6,432 nt of DNA. Source: Actinomycetes bacterium. GTDB lineage: Bacteria; Actinomycetota; Actinomycetes; Propionibacteriales; Nocardioidaceae. This document shows, piece after piece, positions 1-6,432 of the stretch (positions are counted from its first letter, which is position 1; every line of letters begins with the position of its first letter). The notes below the pieces were generated by a model. That model was not told where the DNA came from and searched no databases. It worked only from the letters and a program-made list of their open reading frames with translations. The DNA lies in NCBI GenBank assembly GCA_029779385.1, contig JAKPAQ010000564.1, forward strand, positions 1 through 6,432, written 5' to 3'. The position numbers and the translations under genes are program-made.

Positions 1-447
1 CACTCTCGCCGTGGCGTAAACCAAAATGGTGGCGCCGAAGCCGCCGATAAACGCGAATGCGGCCACTGACCAGCTGCCCAATGCGACCGCACCGAACGCG
101 ATCGCCACCGCCGCACCAAATGCCGCGCCGGCCGAAACGCCGACCACACCAGGTTCGGCCAAGGGGTTACCGAAGATCGCCTGCATCACCGCACCAGCAA
201 CTGCCAGCGCCGCACCGACAAGGATGCTCATGGCGACTCTGGGGAATCTGATGTAAAGCAGGGTGTTCTCAGTGATTTCATCACTGGGGCGCCAACTGGT
301 GTCGATGCCTAGGCCATGCAGGGCAGCGCCGACCACCTCGCGTGGGCCAACAGCCAATTGACCCACCGACGCTGAAACGAAAATGCCAGCAAGAAGTAGA
401 ACGACGAATCCGCCGATGACCGCAGTTCTGCGGCCGGAAGTCACCAC
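1..447 (-). CDS. hmuU: HmuU-like haem ABC transporter permease (FecCD family), 3' part cut by the window edge
   Basis: Membrane permease of a haem/iron-chelate ABC importer; it would form the translocation channel and receive haem from HmuT. The first 149 residues are visible and the frame is open to position 1; the family is usually about 330-350 residues, so over half is missing. Seen: a first membrane segment at about residues 9-28, then the FecCD hallmark region with RFPR (67-70), a small-residue helix, Q89, and NPLAEPGVVGVSAGA (94-108), followed by further hydrophobic segments (109-125 and 128-145). Start: the frame is closed upstream by a TGA inside hmuT, and the only usual start codons before the first membrane helix are two adjacent GTGs (447 and 444). 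I choose 447 because GAGG at 462-459 lies 11 bases upstream. It starts 13 bases after the hmuT stop, so it is in the same operon. Haem rather than siderophore specificity is inferred from the neighbours. Confidence 0.93.
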   Translation of the reverse strand, partial: MVTSGRRTAVIGGFVVLLLAGIFVSASVGQLAVGPREVVGAALHGLGIDTSWRPSDEITENTLLYIRFPRVAMSILVGAALAVAGAVMQAIFGNPLAEPGVVGVSAGAAFGAAVAIAFGAVALGSWSVAAFAFIGGFGATILVYATARV

Positions 448-463
448 GGTCGAATCAGCCTCA
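442..463 (-). promoter_or_regulatory. hmuT stop / hmuU ribosome-binding site and GTG start
   Basis: On the minus strand the hmuT stop TGA (463-461) forms part of the sequence TTGAGG. The GAGG (462-459) is the only Shine-Dalgarno-like run before hmuU. Its spacing is 11 bases to the GTG at 447 and 14 to the GTG at 444, which favours 447. Overlap of the Shine-Dalgarno with the upstream stop suggests re-initiation by ribosomes finishing hmuT. Confidence 0.6.
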
Positions 464-1552
464 ATCTTGGGGGACGTAGATGGCGCGAGCCAGCGCTTCG
501 AGAGTCATCGCCGAACGCGGACCAAACGACAGGATATCGCCGTCGGCCATGTCCACGATTCGCTTGTTCTTGCCGGCCGTCGTCAACGCGATGGCGGGCT
601 TCTCGGCCAACAGCCCGTCGACCCCGCCCGCGGAGTCGAGTCCGTGGGTCATCACGAGGATCAAATCGGGATCAGCCTTGACCATCGCCTCGTCGGTTAG
701 TGGCTGCATTGCCCGCCAGCCGAGCTCCTCGGCAACGTCGAAAGCGCCGAGCCCGTCCAGCAGGCTACTAACGCCTGCTTCTTTGCCGAAAAGGTAGTAG
801 ACGCCGGAGTTTCCGCGGACATACAGAAAAACGACCCGTAACTTCTCGGACTCGTTGGTGGGGGCGAACCGCTCAATCTCGGTCCTCACCTCGGCAATCT
901 CTGCCTCAATCCGGTCGGCGAGTTTTTTGCCGGTCGCCACTAGCCCTACTGCTTGACCTACGTCTTTGGCTAGTTGAGCCGCACCGGCAAAGCTGGGATC
1001 ATTCTCAACAAAAATCACCGGAACGCCGGTATCGGCAAGTTGTTCGACGACATCGCGCGGCCCCATTGAACCGTCAGTAATGATGACCGTCGGCTTTTGC
1101 GCCATCACTGCTTCGGCGTTTACCGCGTGGCCTTCTGAGGTGATCAGCGGCAACTTTTCGGAACCGGGGAACTCAGTCGAGATGTCGCGAGCGACTAGGT
1201 TGTCGCCGAGCCCTAGGCCCCAAAGAGTGCCTGCGATCGAACCGGCCATGTCGAATGCAACGATTCGCGAAGTGTCGGTCACTGTCACCGTCTTGTCGCC
1301 GCCGCGAAGATGCGAGACGACTTTGGCCGGCAACTTCGCCTTTTCAGTCGACTCAACGACTTCAACATCACGATCGCGCAGGACCGCAGTGCTAGGCCCG
1401 GTGATTTCTTTCGGCTTCTTTAGGGGTTCTAGTTCGCTAAGTGCCGGCTGCGGCGTCGAGTCGGACCCTTTTCCTGTTGTCTCGTAGTCGCCACAGGCCG
1501 CCAGCGAGGCCATTAGTAAAACGATGACCAACGCCGAGAGTTTCTTGGTCAT
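461..1552 (-). CDS. hmuT: HmuT-type haem-binding lipoprotein (ABC transporter substrate-binding protein)
   Basis: Extracytoplasmic, membrane-tethered receptor that takes haem from surface HtaA proteins and hands it to HmuU. 363 residues. Seen: a lipoprotein signal peptide with lipobox LAAC and lipidated C20 (the only cysteine), a charged, probably flexible stretch (21-85), then a two-lobe periplasmic-binding fold (about 95-360, TroA/Peripla_BP_2 type) with a long linking helix around 205-230. Haem-ligand candidates: H142 in SEGHAVN, and Y244 and R246 in FLYVRG. In Corynebacterium diphtheriae HmuT the ligands are known to be His136 and Tyr235, with Arg237 next to the tyrosine; the spacing here (102 against 99 residues) and the Tyr-x-Arg pattern fit. 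Start: an in-frame upstream extension exists to 1732, but it lies inside htaA and has no signal peptide. The ATG at 1552 gives an immediate lipoprotein signal, has GGAG 7 bases upstream, and overlaps the htaA stop as ATGA. Confidence 0.95.
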   Translation of the reverse strand: MTKKLSALVIVLLMASLAACGDYETTGKGSDSTPQPALSELEPLKKPKEITGPSTAVLRDRDVEVVESTEKAKLPAKVVSHLRGGDKTVTVTDTSRIVAFDMAGSIAGTLWGLGLGDNLVARDISTEFPGSEKLPLITSEGHAVNAEAVMAQKPTVIITDGSMGPRDVVEQLADTGVPVIFVENDPSFAGAAQLAKDVGQAVGLVATGKKLADRIEAEIAEVRTEIERFAPTNESEKLRVVFLYVRGNSGVYYLFGKEAGVSSLLDGLGAFDVAEELGWRAMQPLTDEAMVKADPDLILVMTHGLDSAGGVDGLLAEKPAIALTTAGKNKRIVDMADGDILSFGPRSAMTLEALARAIYVPQD

Positions 1553-1563
1553 GCAGTTGCTCC
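1549..1563 (-). promoter_or_regulatory. ATGA stop/start overlap of htaA and hmuT, with hmuT ribosome-binding site
   Basis: Minus strand: GGAG (1563-1560), a 7-base spacer, then ATGA, in which ATG (1552-1550) starts hmuT and TGA (1551-1549) ends htaA. This is the typical arrangement for translational coupling, and it fixes the hmuT start. Confidence 0.85.
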
Positions 1564-3891
1564 AGATATCCGTCGACGCATGATCATCACGGTAACTATT
1601 GCCGAGGCCACGGCCCCAAGCACCATTCCGCCAACCCACGGCAACCAACTGGGGCCGTTTCCGCCGCCGCTGGTGGGCGTTACGACAACCTGTTCGTCGG
1701 TTTGCGTGCTGGCCAAATTGGTGGCGGCACAATCTGTGGCAACAGTGAACGTCAACGTGACTGGGTCGAGCGCCGCGCCGGCGGCGTAGTTGGGGAAGAC
1801 TGCGTTCCCGGCCGCAGTGAGCGTTGCCGGAATGTCCGTGATCGTCACAACTTGACCGTCGGTGGTCATCTTGCCGGCAGCCAAGTCAAGGTCAGCAAAT
1901 TGAACGCCAGCTGTGGTGGTGCTGTCGTCCTTGCCTGCCATTGCCGCGTCCATCGTCCCGCCGGAATAGTCCACGGCCAGGGCTGCAGTTTCGTTGTCCA
2001 CAAACGTGACGACCGGGTTGGAGATCGACGTGTCCAACGCCCCGCTGTGCCCGGTGAAGTTCACTGCGCCGGTGAACTTGAGTTCGCCAGAATCGCCGTC
2101 TTCGGCCTGGACGCCAACACCCTTACTCCAAGTGAATTTGGGCGTCTTGTAGCTAGCGTTTCCGCTGGTGGACCAGTCGCCGTTGGCAATCGACCCGGAA
2201 ACATAGGCCCGGAACGACTCCTTGAAGCCCCAGTCGAGGCGGCCGTCAGTGAGTTCACAACCGACGATCTTTTCAGCCGCGCCAATCTCCAATACAACGC
2301 CACGGCTCACCGTTCCTTGGAAGGTCAGCGTGTGTTCGCCCGGTTCGACCGTCGCCGGAATGACGCCTTGCCAAGTGGCCTTGCCGGCCCCATCGGCGGT
2401 CACGTCTTGGGCGAGGATCGTCGGGGTCGAATAGAGCACGACCCGGATGCCCGTTTCGTTTGGCGCAAAGCCTTCACCCGAGACGGCGATCTCGTCGCCG
2501 GCGTTCACTTCGTCTTGTTTCACCAAAAGTCCGGTGGTCGCTGGTGGTGAAGTCGGCGCGGTCCAGTTGCTTGCGGTTGAGGCCGCCGAGACCACGCTCG
2601 TTCCGGCCGCAGTTGCGCGACTGGATTTGCTCGCGCTCGACCCGATCGAGAAGGTCACCGGGTCCATCGGTGTTCCCGGCGGGTAAAACTCACTGCCGTC
2701 GCGAGCGAACAGAGTCGACCCGGCCGGGGTGAGTGCCGCCGGTGCGCTGGCGTATTGCACCCATCCGGCCGCCGTGGTGCGTTTCGCTGCGCTCAGGGTG
2801 ACGACGGCAACGTCGACTCTCCCCTTGCCTGCAACGTGGGCGGTGAGCATGGCCGAGTTGGCCGAGGTCACCCGAACGGCCGGGGCAGAAAGCGCAAGAT
2901 TCAACTCCCCGTGATGGCCCGTGAATTGGACGCCACCGCGATAGGTGGTGGTGCCGACCGGGTTCGGCGCTTTGGCGCTCGTGCTCGATTGGCCGAACCA
3001 GTATCCGCCGGAGGTCGCCTTCGCCCCAGCCGAAACGGAAACACTTCCTCTGGCGATCGGGCCGGTGATGTAGGACCTAAAACTCGTCTTGACGCCCCAG
3101 ACCAACTCGCCGGACTTTGCCTTCGGGCTGGTGTTCGGCTTGGGTTTTGGGCTCGGCGAGACGGTCGGCTGAGTGGTCGCTGCCGTTGTGGGCGCCGTGG
3201 TTGGTTCGACCGTCGGCTCAGCAGTGGGTGCTGTTGTCGGTCCGGTGGTCGGCTCAGTCGGCTCTGGCGTAGAGGCGACGTCGAAGGTCGCGCTGATCGG
3301 ATCCAACTGCTCACCTGCGGTGTACATCGGGAAACCGTCGTAGATGAAGGCCGCTTCGCCGGCTTTGGTGAGTGTTGCCGGCGCGGCATTGACCTTCACC
3401 GTGGTGGCAGTTTTGGTGACCCGGCCGGCCAGGTTGACGGTGGCGAAAACGACGTCGGTTTTGCTTGCGCCGGTGCTGTCGAGAACGTCGACGACCAATT
3501 GTGCGCCGCTTGCCTTGTTCACCAGCCGCGGGTTGGAAATGGTCACGTCCAGCTCATTTTTGTGGCCGACAAAACGCACTGATCCTGCGGTACGAGCCTC
3601 GCCAGCACTATCGGACCAGTCACCCGTGGCATTGACGAAGGTGGTGACCGAGCCGTTGTCGGTTGCACCGCCGGCGACGGTCACCGAGCCGTGGGCGATG
3701 TTGCTGACGATGTAGCTGCGGAAACTTTCCTTTACGCCCCAGGTGATCGAGCCGCCGGTGACCGGTTCGCTCGGTTCGTTCGCGTCCGCGGTCATCATCG
3801 GCAGCGAAAATACTGCCAAAACCAATGCAGCGGAGACAACCACTGATCGCCGCCATATTCCGGCTCGATTCGACTGAATCGGGTCGCTCAT
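1549..3891 (-). CDS. htaA: HtaA-family surface haem-binding protein with three HtaA domains and a C-terminal membrane anchor
   Basis: Cell-envelope haem receptor, first gene of the htaA-hmuT-hmuU operon; 780 residues from the ATG at 3891. Domains in order: Sec signal peptide (1-37, cleavage likely ADA/NE); HtaA domain 1 (about 45-207); Pro/Thr-rich linker (208-258); HtaA domain 2 (261-417); Ser/Ala/Thr-rich linker (418-452); an Ig-like domain (454-536) with the GEGFAPNE turn; HtaA domain 3 (545-721); membrane helix (about 750-771) and the positive tail RRR. Each HtaA domain has the opening WG(V/F)K.SFR.Y with its tyrosine (Y60, Y274, Y563), the histidine of F.GH (H110, H326, H615), and a late tyrosine (Y190, Y403, Y702); the first Tyr and the His are the known haem-contact residues of the family. 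The only cysteines, C545 and C721, bracket domain 3. Start: a TTG at 3897 is also in frame, but GGGAG lies 7 bases before the ATG and only 1 before the TTG. Three domains plus an Ig insert is more than the two haem-binding domains of C. diphtheriae HtaA. Confidence 0.95.
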   Translation of the reverse strand: MSDPIQSNRAGIWRRSVVVSAALVLAVFSLPMMTADANEPSEPVTGGSITWGVKESFRSYIVSNIAHGSVTVAGGATDNGSVTTFVNATGDWSDSAGEARTAGSVRFVGHKNELDVTISNPRLVNKASGAQLVVDVLDSTGASKTDVVFATVNLAGRVTKTATTVKVNAAPATLTKAGEAAFIYDGFPMYTAGEQLDPISATFDVASTPEPTEPTTGPTTAPTAEPTVEPTTAPTTAATTQPTVSPSPKPKPNTSPKAKSGELVWGVKTSFRSYITGPIARGSVSVSAGAKATSGGYWFGQSSTSAKAPNPVGTTTYRGGVQFTGHHGELNLALSAPAVRVTSANSAMLTAHVAGKGRVDVAVVTLSAAKRTTAAGWVQYASAPAALTPAGSTLFARDGSEFYPPGTPMDPVTFSIGSSASKSSRATAAGTSVVSAASTASNWTAPTSPPATTGLLVKQDEVNAGDEIAVSGEGFAPNETGIRVVLYSTPTILAQDVTADGAGKATWQGVIPATVEPGEHTLTFQGTVSRGVVLEIGAAEKIVGCELTDGRLDWGFKESFRAYVSGSIANGDWSTSGNASYKTPKFTWSKGVGVQAEDGDSGELKFTGAVNFTGHSGALDTSISNPVVTFVDNETAALAVDYSGGTMDAAMAGKDDSTTTAGVQFADLDLAAGKMTTDGQVVTITDIPATLTAAGNAVFPNYAAGAALDPVTLTFTVATDCAATNLASTQTDEQVVVTPTSGGGNGPSWLPWVGGMVLGAVASAIVTVMIMRRRISGATA
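1729..2259 (-). repeat. HtaA domain copy 3 (membrane-proximal)
   Basis: Residues 545-721 of HtaA. It holds WGFKESFRAY (Y563), NFTGHSG (H615) and NYAAGAALDPV (Y702). It is the only copy framed by cysteines (C545, C721), which could close the domain with a disulfide. It is followed by a short linker and the membrane helix, so it is the copy best placed to pass haem to HmuT. Confidence 0.9.
2641..3111 (-). repeat. HtaA domain copy 2
   Basis: Residues 261-417 of HtaA. It holds WGVKTSFRSY (Y274), QFTGHHG (H326) and FYPPGTPMDPV (Y403), and has no cysteine. Between the Tyr and His motifs it carries a Gly/Ser/Pro-rich stretch (about residues 294-318) with aromatic residues. Confidence 0.9.
3118..3270 (-). 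repeat. Low-complexity Pro/Thr-rich linker coding region
   Basis: Encodes about 51 residues (208-258) of degenerate PT-rich repeats such as TEPTTGPTTAPTAEPT, ending in a lysine/proline stretch. At DNA level it shows imperfect short repeats of the TCGGCTCAG type. It probably forms an extended spacer between HtaA domains 1 and 2 that spans the wall. Repeats of this kind often vary in length between strains. Confidence 0.85.
3271..3759 (-). repeat. HtaA domain copy 1 (outermost)
   Basis: Residues 45-207 of HtaA. It holds WGVKESFRSY (Y60), RFVGHKN (H110) and MYTAGEQLDPI (Y190), and has no cysteine. Being N-terminal and furthest from the anchor, it is the likely first point of haem contact. Confidence 0.9.
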
Positions 3892-3954: not shown

Positions 3955-3973
3955 TAAGGTGTGCCTTACCTAC
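3955..3973. promoter_or_regulatory. Candidate DtxR/IdeR iron-regulator operator
   Basis: TAAGGTGTGCCTTACCTAC matches the known 19-base DtxR/IdeR consensus TWAGGTTAGSCTWACCTWA at 16 of 19 positions, counted by eye; the mismatches are positions 7, 8 and 19. It sits in the divergent gap, 64 bases before the htaA ATG and 40 before the 4014 ATG. With Fe(II), a DtxR-type protein bound here would be expected to repress both directions; under iron limitation both would be expressed. The role is known for corynebacterial hta/hmu operons and inferred here. Confidence 0.82.
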
Positions 3974-4013: not shown

Positions 4014-5870
4014 ATGAGGTCCAAATCCCTCGTGCGCAGTCGCCGCGCATTGGCGTGGAGTTCAGCAACCGCACTAGCCGCAGGCCTGCTCGCGTTCGTC
4101 CCCACCTCGGCGGCACAAGCCGACGAAACTCCCGTAGTGCCGACCGTCAGTGTTTCAAAAGTCTCGTTCTTCGCCGATGAAACGGCTACCGTCACGGTAA
4201 CCGGCACCGGGTTCAACCCCGACTCGGCAATCGGCGCCCGCCCGCCACTTGCTGGCAAGAAGTCCGGCGCATACGTGATCTTCGGCAAATTCGCCGCCAA
4301 CTGGAAACCGTCAGCAAGCGCACCATCGTCTGCACGAAAGGTCGCCAACCAGGTGTGGGCACTACCCGAGCCCTCACTGAGCGAACCGACCCTAGCCACC
4401 TCCTGCGCCAATGGTGGTTGCGTCGAACTGAAATCAGACGGATCCTTCACAACCACCATCTCGGTCTCGAAGGCAGCAGCCGACACCGCCGCTGGAACTG
4501 ATCAAAACCTAGTCAACTACGGCATCTACACCCTCGCCGGCAGCGGCGCCGTGGTCGCCGACTACGAGACCTATACCCCAATCGAGTTCGTTAAGCATGA
4601 AAGCAATCTTCAACTAGCGGACGCGGTCGCGTTCGCGGGTTCAACTAAGTCGCTGACTGCCACGCTTGCAACAGGTGCAACCGGCAACGTGACGCTTTCG
4701 GGCTTGCCCGATGGCAACCTAGTTAGCCCTGTCGATGACGGGGTGGCCACGTTCACTGTTCCGGCGAATCTTCCCATTGGTTCCTACGAACTTTCCGTTT
4801 CGTACGAAGGTGACGATAACTACGCCCGATCTGAACACACCGCTAACCTTCGGGTCGTCACCTCAACGCCGAGCGTGACCGTGTCGACGACCGAGTTCCA
4901 GGCAGACGAAGTAGCCACGATTACCGTCGAAGGATCTGGGTTTGACCCGAGCGCCGTGACATCACTTACGCAGCCACTGGTCAACCGACCCGCAGGCGTA
5001 TCCATCACCTTCAGCAAGTTCTCCGAAGAGTGGCAGCCCAGCAAGAGTGCCCCCGCAGAGAATCGTCTGCGTAACAACAACTCGCTCAAATGGGCGGTGC
5101 TCGCTGAAGACTCCGCGGCCGTCGGCGGCCCCGCAGCAGGTGCGATCGAGTTGAAATCAGACGGTACGTTCACGGCAGAATTGACTGTCGACAAGGCCGC
5201 TTTAGACGAACTTGTGCCTCAGCAGGGTGCAGATCAACCAATGCGCTACGGCATCTATACCTATGCCGGTGGGGTCAATACGAAGCACGAGCCTTACGAG
5301 ACGTTCACTCCGATCAAGTTCAAGACCACGGTCGACACGGCCGGCCTGAATACGACGTTCGGCAAGGGTGGAAGCCTCACCCTTACGACGTCGGCCGAAG
5401 GAACTGTCAACGTGCCTGGCCTGGGCGAAAAGTCCACCACGGACGGCAAGGTCACTTTCTCCGTCCCGACGAACACCGCAGTCGGCTCGAAGACCTACAC
5501 CGCCACGTTCACCCCAAGCGATGGCGCGTTCCTGACCTCAACCAAGTCCTTCACGGTCACCGTCGCTAAGGCGACCGTGAGCACTTCGGCCAAGGTCACC
5601 AAGAAGCCGACGAAGCGCAAGACTGGGTCGGCCACGATCTACGTCGCCGGAGTTCGTGGCGTCACCGCACCATCAGGGGCAGTCACCCTGAAGCTAACCA
5701 AGGGCAAGAGCGCCAAGTACGTGCGCGCCACGGTACGCAACGGCGCGGTGAAGGTCAGTTTGCCCAAGCTAGCCAAGGGCAAATGGACCGTGCAGGCCGC
5801 CTATGGTGGCAACGCGAACTACAACGCGCGCGGCTACGCAGTGGTGGGATCGATCAAGGTCACCAAGTGA
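4014..5870 (+). CDS. Secreted protein with two ~150-residue repeat modules and three Ig-like domains; function unassigned
   Basis: 618 residues, divergent from the haem operon and sharing its iron box. Seen: signal peptide with RSRR, a hydrophobic core and likely cleavage AQA/DE after residue 36; module A (43-193); Ig-like domain (about 194-283); module B (285-436); Ig-like domain (437-518); a lysine-rich Ig-like domain (519-618) that ends the protein. The modules share ADE.AT, a V.G.GF.P turn, KF...W.PS.SAP, ELKSDG.FT, YGIYT.AG and YET.TPI.F. There is no C-terminal membrane helix and no LPXTG motif, so it is released or held only by its basic end. The only cysteines (C131, C136) are in module A. 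It contains no WGVKxSFRxY/GH pattern, so it is not an HtaA domain. The order of turns in the module recalls the neocarzinostatin-like beta-sandwich with an insertion (inference, weak). A haem- or iron-related role is inferred from context only; an adhesin or wall protein remains possible. Confidence 0.9.
   Translation: MRSKSLVRSRRALAWSSATALAAGLLAFVPTSAAQADETPVVPTVSVSKVSFFADETATVTVTGTGFNPDSAIGARPPLAGKKSGAYVIFGKFAANWKPSASAPSSARKVANQVWALPEPSLSEPTLATSCANGGCVELKSDGSFTTTISVSKAAADTAAGTDQNLVNYGIYTLAGSGAVVADYETYTPIEFVKHESNLQLADAVAFAGSTKSLTATLATGATGNVTLSGLPDGNLVSPVDDGVATFTVPANLPIGSYELSVSYEGDDNYARSEHTANLRVVTSTPSVTVSTTEFQADEVATITVEGSGFDPSAVTSLTQPLVNRPAGVSITFSKFSEEWQPSKSAPAENRLRNNNSLKWAVLAEDSAAVGGPAAGAIELKSDGTFTAELTVDKAALDELVPQQGADQPMRYGIYTYAGGVNTKHEPYETFTPIKFKTTVDTAGLNTTFGKGGSLTLTTSAEGTVNVPGLGEKSTTDGKVTFSVPTNTAVGSKTYTATFTPSDGAFLTSTKSFTVTVAKATVSTSAKVTKKPTKRKTGSATIYVAGVRGVTAPSGAVTLKLTKGKSAKYVRATVRNGAVKVSLPKLAKGKWTVQAAYGGNANYNARGYAVVGSIKVTK
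4140..4592 (+). repeat. Repeat module A of the secreted protein
   Basis: Residues 43-193. Landmarks: FFADETATVTV, GTGFNPDSA, AYVIFGKFAANWKPS, VELKSDGSFT, NYGIYTLAG and YETYTPIEF. It contains the protein's only cysteines in SCANGGC (C131, C136), which module B lacks. DNA similarity to module B is patchy, so the duplication is old. Confidence 0.85.
4866..5321 (+). repeat. Repeat module B of the secreted protein
   Basis: Residues 285-436. Landmarks: FQADEVATITV, GSGFDPSAV, VSITFSKFSEEWQPS, IELKSDGTFT, RYGIYTYAG and YETFTPIKF. It has no cysteine. The best conserved DNA stretch against module A is around the shared TTGAAATCAGACGG / CTGAAATCAGACGG. Confidence 0.85.
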
Positions 5871-5885
5871 GCTGATCTTCACTAC

Positions 5886-5933
5886 CTAAGCTCGAGGGCT
5901 GACGTCACCTGGTGACGTCAGCCCTCGACTTAG
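5886..5933. terminator. Long perfect inverted repeat, probable bidirectional terminator
   Basis: Arms CGAGGGCTGACGTCACC (5893-5909) and its exact complement (5911-5927) around a single T, giving a 15-16 bp stem with a 3-5 base loop. Outer arms CTAAG/CTTAG (5886-5890 and 5929-5933) extend it past a small bulge. It lies 15 bases after the stop of the 4014 gene and between convergent genes. There is no T-run on either side, as is common for actinobacterial terminators. The stop codon of the convergent gene lies inside it. Confidence 0.85.
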
Positions 5934-6432
5934 TTGTGGCCAAAGCGCAATCGGGGCCGCAGCTTTTGGGGTCTCCCTCCCAGCCGTTCGCCGCGAGAAC
6001 CGCTGCCACTTTCGCAGCGGTTGCACATGGACGCTCAAAGACCTGGCCCCAGCCAAGCCGGATTGCCAACCGGCCTTCGGACGCAATTTCAAGATCGCGC
6101 TCAAGGTCGCGATCGCGCTGTCTGCTTGAAGAATGAAACTGCCGACCGTCGAGTTCGATTACGGCAAGTCCAGCTAAATCGACATCGCGATACTCCACAC
6201 CATTTGGACTGACGTGGCGGAACTGCCTCGTGCCAACCGGCAATCGGTGCGGCCGTTCAACTTGGTCGAGGTAGCCATGCTCAAGTACTGACCAAGTACC
6301 GGTCGCGAGGTCTTCAATGACTCGACTCAGGAAACCTCGCCGGCGTATTCGAGCACGACTGCTTAGGGCCGCGCTAAGGCGTTCAGCAGTGGTCCGACGA
6401 GAGCCAACCGCGGCCGCCAAAACCGCTACTGA
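5905..6432 (-). CDS. Protein with DUF559/Vsr-like (PD-(D/E)XK) C-terminal domain, 5' end cut by the window edge
   Basis: 175 residues visible, frame open to 6432. A TTG at 6420 could be read as a start, but the residues before it continue the typical helix of this family, so the true N-terminus is outside the window. The family, as I know it in actinobacteria, is about 270-310 residues with an N-terminal winged-helix AbiEi-like domain and is often annotated as an AbiEi-family antitoxin-domain or DUF559 protein. Visible: SVLEHGYL (48-55), YRDVD (81-85), IELDGRQFH (92-100), a charged run QRDRDLERDLE, then IRLGWGQVF (124-132). D85 and E93/D95 fit the acidic residues of PD-(D/E)XK nucleases. Three cysteines (C136, C158, C162) near the end match the family's CGP.C tail. 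Nuclease activity is not proven, and no toxin partner is visible. The last seven codons and the stop lie in the terminator hairpin. Probably unrelated to haem uptake. Confidence 0.85.
   Translation of the reverse strand, partial: SVAVLAAAVGSRRTTAERLSAALSSRARIRRRGFLSRVIEDLATGTWSVLEHGYLDQVERPHRLPVGTRQFRHVSPNGVEYRDVDLAGLAVIELDGRQFHSSSRQRDRDLERDLEIASEGRLAIRLGWGQVFERPCATAAKVAAVLAANGWEGDPKSCGPDCALATTKSRADVTR

Follow-up and report, generated by a model that had tools for sequence, protein, structure and literature searches.

The 6,432-nucleotide stretch of Nocardioidaceae DNA analysed here (the window) raises the question of why a gene for a putatively secreted protein of 618 amino acids, catalogued as 'MAG TPA: Ig-like domain-containing protein [Aeromicrobium sp.]' (P0001), lies back to back with a haem-uptake operon, and what the repeated module in its product could do there.

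Architecture of the 618-residue protein and the divergent haem operon

The open reading frame starts with ATG, as the earlier note gave it, and encodes a protein in which two copies of a module of about 150 residues, termed M below, alternate with Ig-like domains in the order M-Ig-M-Ig-Ig (Table 1). The duplication described in the note was borne out, as M1 and M2 share 42% identity (66/156, E 4e-35) and the landmark motifs it had named are visible in their alignment. Its Ig-like domains were also found, with Big_3_5 matching three stretches above the Pfam cut-off (E 1.6e-18). By reading, the C-terminus carries no hydrophobic, membrane or LPXTG/sortase anchor segment. Terminator-like sites in the window numbered three against a shuffle mean of 2.3 and are thus not in excess, a sigma-70 promoter scan of the window found none, and a tblastn search against plasmids gave no match. 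A convergent gene at window positions 5905-6420 (-) has a weak similarity to MTES_1575/DUF559 endonucleases (E 0.00055, under the cut-off).

Table 1. Features of the window
Feature	Positions	Strand	Basis
hmuU-like FecCD permease gene, cut by window end	1..447	-	PF01032 E 4.6e-29
hmuT-like gene for haem-binding lipoprotein, overlaps htaA stop	461..1552	-	PF01497 E 8.9e-31; ATG, lipobox by reading
htaA-like gene with three HtaA (CR) domains and, by reading, a membrane anchor at the C-terminus	1549..3891	-	PF04213 E 3.4e-109
DtxR/IdeR-type iron box between divergent genes	3955..3973	.	16/19 vs consensus
Gene for 618-aa putatively secreted M-Ig-M-Ig-Ig protein	4014..5870	+	ORF, ATG start
Putative signal peptide, residues 1-36, ending AQA	4014..4121	+	reading of sequence
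Module M1, residues 43-193, predicted neocarzinostatin-like fold	4140..4592	+	
Ig-like domain Big_3_5, residues 206-281	4629..4856	+	Pfam
Module M2, residues 285-437	4866..5324	+	M profile E 8e-52; 42% identity to M1
Second Ig-like domain, residues 446-519	5349..5570	+	own profile E 1e-07
Third, C-terminal Ig-like domain, residues 528-618	5595..5867	+	own profile E 3e-18
Terminator-like hairpin 3' of gene	5892..5928	+	18-bp perfect arms; weak T-tail

The haem operon from which the gene was said to diverge proved to consist of a gene for a protein with three HtaA domains, followed by genes for an HmuT-like lipoprotein and a FecCD permease. The motifs SFRxY, GHx[GN]xL[DN] and YxxGxx[LM]DP each occur three times in the htaA gene product. 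According to PMC12494546, CR domains bind haem through an axial tyrosine, and the motifs present in all three HtaA domains of the window would correspond to this tyrosine, its serine neighbour, the helper histidine and the propionate-binding tyrosine described there.

The divergent start codons lie 122 bp apart, and between them is the best DtxR/IdeR-like site of the window when scored against a 19-bp consensus. The score of 16/19 lies above all randomisations, the best of which reached 14 when the 116-bp intergenic region was randomised 300 times (first order) and 15 when the whole window was randomised 60 times. The gene thus has a predicted 19-bp operator upstream that scores above chance, as in the DtxR/IdeR regulon. 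The same 19-mer is located between the divergent genes of two related loci (L034 and L040), and boxes at the divergent site score 17/19 in L030 and 18/19 and 17/19 in L080, so that the iron box which the earlier note considered to be shared by both transcription units recurs at the same position in relatives.

Linkage of module M to haem-uptake genes

A protein search with the 618-residue query found 179 relatives among the best 7997 candidates, and the best 120 of the 179 were analysed. All 120 contain M, which is expected since the query has two copies of it. An HtaA-type domain (H) was detected in 106 of these 120 proteins with our own profile (E<1e-5) and in 37 by precomputed Pfam. Our profile, iterated from one HtaA domain of the window, took in 35 proteins at first and 107 after four rounds, never overlapped M and recovered all 37 Pfam-labelled proteins; Pfam HtaA reached only E 0.39 in the H-M protein of locus L031 and gave no match in the two-H-domain gene product of L033. 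Of the 14 listed proteins without an HtaA-type domain several are fragment-like; among the remaining ones is the window protein, as are further putatively secreted M-Ig proteins that stand alone.

To place M in its genomic surroundings, 81 genomes from the family of the Nocardioides lianchengensis genome G001 were surveyed. M was present in 17, Pfam HtaA in 17 and both in 10, which by Pfam alone corresponds to HtaA in 10 of 17 M-positive and 7 of 64 M-negative genomes (Fisher p 1e-4). As Pfam HtaA occurs without M in 7 of its 17 genomes, the module is dispensable for an HtaA system. For each M-positive genome one region of 20 kb around M was examined (n=17); HtaA-type domains were found without exception (17/17) and in 15 cases in the same ORF as M. 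Homologues of hmuT and hmuU were present in 15 of the 17 loci, the nearest module being 3.6-6.9 kb away from hmuT and 4.4-6.1 kb away from hmuU. The other two loci are L036, which lies at a contig edge, and L027. M proteins encoded by an ORF of their own at loci with HtaA-type genes were also observed in L026 and L035. Among 246 phylum-wide genomes, scored for the best 16 candidates per genome, M was found in at least four, two of which already belong to the family set; in L079 and L080 from this survey M and HtaA are joined in one protein each, with a weak M match in L080 (E 2e-14). A scan of genome contigs yielded L001 as the sole locus, and in it only the Ig-like part was matched; its genome does contain M.

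In 12 of the 15 further loci among the 17 of the family, inspected by eye, the best iron box of the 20 kb immediately precedes the gene that opens the cluster, with scores of 14 to 17. In 20 kb a score of 14 to 15 does not exceed chance, and for these boxes it is therefore the position alone that speaks. The best box of L027 (score 18) precedes the HtaA-M gene, and in L025 and L036 the best site of the 20 kb is not upstream of the first cluster gene or of the HtaA-M gene. The earlier note had stated that its reading would fall if the module occurred mostly away from haem genes; the family loci showed the opposite. Together with hmuT and hmuU in 15/17 loci and the box at the divergent position in relatives, the constant presence of HtaA-type domains strongly supports the assignment of the M protein to a haem-uptake system, which the note had proposed for it as a secreted haem/iron-uptake component.

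The closest positional counterparts differ in domain arrangement. In L030 and L034 the gene that diverges from hmuT/hmuU and a gene with four HtaA domains encodes an HtaA-M-Ig-Ig protein, with 67% and 83% identity, respectively, to the Aeromicrobium choanae protein P0010. The gene at the divergent position in L040 encodes HtaA-Ig-Ig without M, and L024 encodes a protein (P0003) of the order HtaA-M-Ig-M-Ig-Ig-Ig, which resembles the window protein with HtaA placed in front. In view of these HtaA-bearing relatives at the divergent position, the window protein seems to belong to the same family and to have M in the place of HtaA.

A haem binder from Dietzia may also belong here. According to PMC8027190, DtHtaA of Dietzia sp. 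DQ12-45-1b is induced more than 50-fold under iron limitation, binds haem and is encoded next to haem ABC-transporter genes, haem passing from HtaA to HmuTUV; by that description the protein has a single HtaA domain, and the text accessible does not mention an M-like module. Four proteins of other Dietzia proved to be H-M proteins (H E 1e-13 to 4e-15, partial; M E<=6e-53), and DtHtaA itself is therefore probably an H-M protein. Like the window protein it is encoded beside haem transporter genes, and it differs from that protein by having an HtaA domain.

A second neocarzinostatin-like protein, apparently membrane-anchored, was noted in the haem operons (L031:13258-14415, minus strand, with equivalents in 11 of the 17 loci). 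In L031, L033, L037 and L039 its gene is positioned between the ABC-transporter genes and the HtaA-type gene. It has 456 relatives, and C-x4-C and AHG motifs are invariant in 43 aligned sequences.

Predicted fold and conserved residues of module M

No Pfam family reached its cut-off in M. The statement of the earlier note that M is not an HtaA domain was correct, since profile-profile comparison with HtaA domains by hhalign gave a probability of only 1.4%, over 19 columns. PF04213 did not match the 618-residue protein at E<=1 in the same scan that recognised the adjoining htaA product, and a divergent HtaA domain was thereby ruled out. Another Big_3_5 Ig domain was rejected as well (hhalign probability 0.3%).

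The best structural matches of predicted M are members of the neocarzinostatin family (PF00960), and the match of the second operon protein to this family is clearer still. Over the whole domain the predicted fold agrees with that of the neocarzinostatin-family apoproteins, and we consider it very probable, on the basis of the model, that M has a neocarzinostatin-like fold. Foldseek by itself returned nothing significant (E>=0.012), with mostly antibody chains on top and neocarzinostatin absent among the 50 best listed, and sequence searches of the PDB with the whole protein, the M profile and the second operon protein gave no neocarzinostatin match. At the sequence level M1 scored 16.7 bits against PF00960 (gathering cut-off 25 bits). 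Matches at E<=1 to this family occurred in 6 of 24 modules (best 0.0078) and to TIG in 10 of 24 (best 0.003). P0048, a relative built of M modules, passes PF00960 with 32.3 bits, its best stretch covering profile positions 1-26 only. Profile alignment of M to neocarzinostatin gave 91% probability; as it is confined to 25 N-terminal columns that are also TIG-like, the link of M to the neocarzinostatin family rests on the fold.

Compared with neocarzinostatin, macromomycin, C-1027 and actinoxanthin, M shares the N-terminal signature and differs in staying below the Pfam cut-off, in being about 40 residues longer and in its location in haem operons. The neocarzinostatin family has conserved disulfide cysteines, which M lacks, no column exceeding 20% Cys among 174 module instances, whereas the second operon protein has kept the invariant C-x4-C pair. 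A cysteine pair in M1 (CANGGC, residues 130 and 135) is absent from M2 and from the other 22 modules of a 24-module alignment. In a hand alignment that used the second operon protein as a bridge, YGIYTY of M would fall on the strand of neocarzinostatin around Cys93-Ser98, the side chains of which we take to line the chromophore cleft. The fold in general is not haem-specific, since 12 of 14 examined loci with PF00960 matches elsewhere (11 genomes) have no HtaA-type domain; an hmuT homologue was present in one of these 12 (L075).

Residue conservation was determined for the 174 module instances that remained after 80% dereplication of 223 instances from 193/201 proteins. G85, Y87, W97, W115, G143, F145, Y172, the Tyr at position 174 and E185 are conserved at 91-100%. 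The conserved tyrosines postulated by the earlier note held for the YGIYT pair (81% and 91% Tyr) and failed for that of YET, where only 52% of the instances have Tyr. Each window module has moreover lost another near-invariant tyrosine: the position of Leu174 in M1 is Tyr in 92% of the instances, and that of Ser330 in M2, which is equivalent to Y87, in 97%. The note's suggestion of a haemophore with haem held by the conserved tyrosines gains a plausible structural footing from the predicted ligand-cleft fold. The loss of one tyrosine per module speaks mildly against two equivalent haem sites. W97/W340, W115/W360 and Y172/Y415 are retained in both modules.

Among known haem-uptake proteins, the CR-domain haemophores and surface proteins of the HtaA/ChtA type (PF04213) share with the window protein the type of operon with hmuT and hmuU, the type of iron box and a secreted or surface location, putative for the window protein, and their CR domain is fused to M in relatives; they differ from it as M is not HtaA by Pfam or profile comparison and the window protein has no HtaA domain at all. 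The NEAT haemophores of Isd systems likewise serve Gram-positive bacteria in taking up haem, with Ig-type modules that are secreted or displayed at the surface. NEAT domains have a tyrosine-rich strand. The 618-residue protein has no Pfam NEAT match at E<=1, and NEAT was absent from the structural match rows for M, which does not exclude a likeness. A search covering mostly open-access papers found no literature linking neocarzinostatin with HtaA or haem uptake. No paper was found in mostly open-access literature on HtaA in Nocardioides or on an HtaA domain together with Ig-like domains and heme, and in one paper examined among those on neocarzinostatin with porphyrin the match was a reference-list entry on artificial metalloenzymes. 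Neocarzinostatin apoprotein together with heme led to one drug-resistance review, and neocarzinostatin together with PF00960 to one phage-metagenome paper. We thus found no earlier description, mainly within open-access literature, of a link of M to haem uptake.

Possible roles of module M in haem uptake

From the computed architecture, predicted fold, operon layout, iron box and HtaA fusion or linkage we infer export, repression by iron, haem binding and transfer to HtaA. At low iron a DtxR/IdeR-type repressor would leave the box, and the htaA-hmuT-hmuU operon and the gene of the 618-residue protein would then be co-expressed. The protein would be exported and act outside the membrane, where its two neocarzinostatin-like modules, spaced by Ig-like domains, could each capture haem or a haem-bearing ligand in a cleft partly lined by the conserved Y-G-I-Y-T-Y strand. 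The ligand might be handed to the membrane-anchored three-domain HtaA, from there to HmuT and then to the ABC importer. That the gene encodes such an iron-repressed, exported accessory protein of HtaA-HmuTUV haem uptake, with modules that capture haem or a haem-bearing ligand, appears to us an evenly balanced proposition, and haem binding by M itself falls somewhat short of that. The fusion to HtaA, the homologues at the divergent position, the domain order of the L024 protein, the iron box, the small-molecule-carrier fold and the near-invariant aromatics count in favour of a haem accessory, as do the haem-contact motifs of the three window HtaA domains and the iron-limited induction and haem binding of DtHtaA. 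Against it count that in fusions all of the binding could be due to HtaA, that Leu174 and Ser330 replace tyrosines, that M is dispensable, that Foldseek was not significant, that the M profile matched no neocarzinostatin in the PDB and that the fold is not haem-specific.

Some of the same observations would suit a module that never touches haem. M could instead be a docking module for a haemoprotein substrate, for the HtaA domains, for the M-like protein anchored in the membrane or for the cell surface, and the window protein would then tether or concentrate haem sources near HtaA. The usual joining of M to an HtaA-type domain, its chaining with Ig-like domains and the lack of one conserved tyrosine in each window module agree with docking, and according to PMC4069089 non-haem domains of IsdB matter in taking haem from methaemoglobin. 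We nevertheless regard docking as rather unlikely, since the near-invariant aromatics in the YGIYTY strand and a fold with a small-molecule cleft suit a small ligand better. Such a ligand need not be haem: members of the fold bind diverse hydrophobic compounds, namely the neocarzinostatin chromophore and, judging from titles of structure entries, testosterone in evolved mutants, and M might broaden the imports by binding a siderophore, a metal-free porphyrin or another tetrapyrrole. The neighbours are of the haem type, however, with HmuT, HmuU and an HtaA protein carrying haem-contact motifs, which makes another ligand improbable. We give equally little credit to M as a ligand-free Ig-like domain that serves purely as spacer or adhesin. 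Ig-fold matches dominate the Foldseek result and TIG matched 10 of the 24 modules, but many aromatics are conserved beyond the N-terminal Ig-like signature and the linkage to haem genes is close.

If haem capture by M applies, the neocarzinostatin fold could also be a natural haem-capturing fold and would add a Gram-positive module type to NEAT and HtaA/CR, employed by M in secreted arrays and by the second operon protein in a relay anchored in the membrane. The carriers of antibiotics and these modules of nutrient uptake might have a common ancestor; we put all of this forward tentatively. It would connect the fold of an anticancer-drug carrier to iron nutrition and offer a possible origin for the enediyne apoproteins. 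The HtaA-HmuTUV system of Actinomycetota gains protein families that are mostly named hypothetical, Ig-like or HtaA-type, if they are named at all, and in DtHtaA a tested haem binder may hold a second, overlooked domain.

Several further neocarzinostatin-like proteins were noted outside the M loci. Genome G321 encodes a 486-residue ORF with four tandem neocarzinostatin-like domains (L066:5309-6769), with no homologue of HtaA, hmuT or hmuU in 16 kb. In L075:5373-10867 neocarzinostatin-like domains, one of them combined with cell-wall-binding repeats (PF04122), flank hmuT/hmuU-like genes, and no HtaA-type domain was detected there. In G001 and G020 small proteins over the PF00960 cut-off (37.5 and 32.8 bits) are encoded immediately 5' of HtaA genes, at loci other than those of M (L069:9246-9707 and L073:9283-9759).
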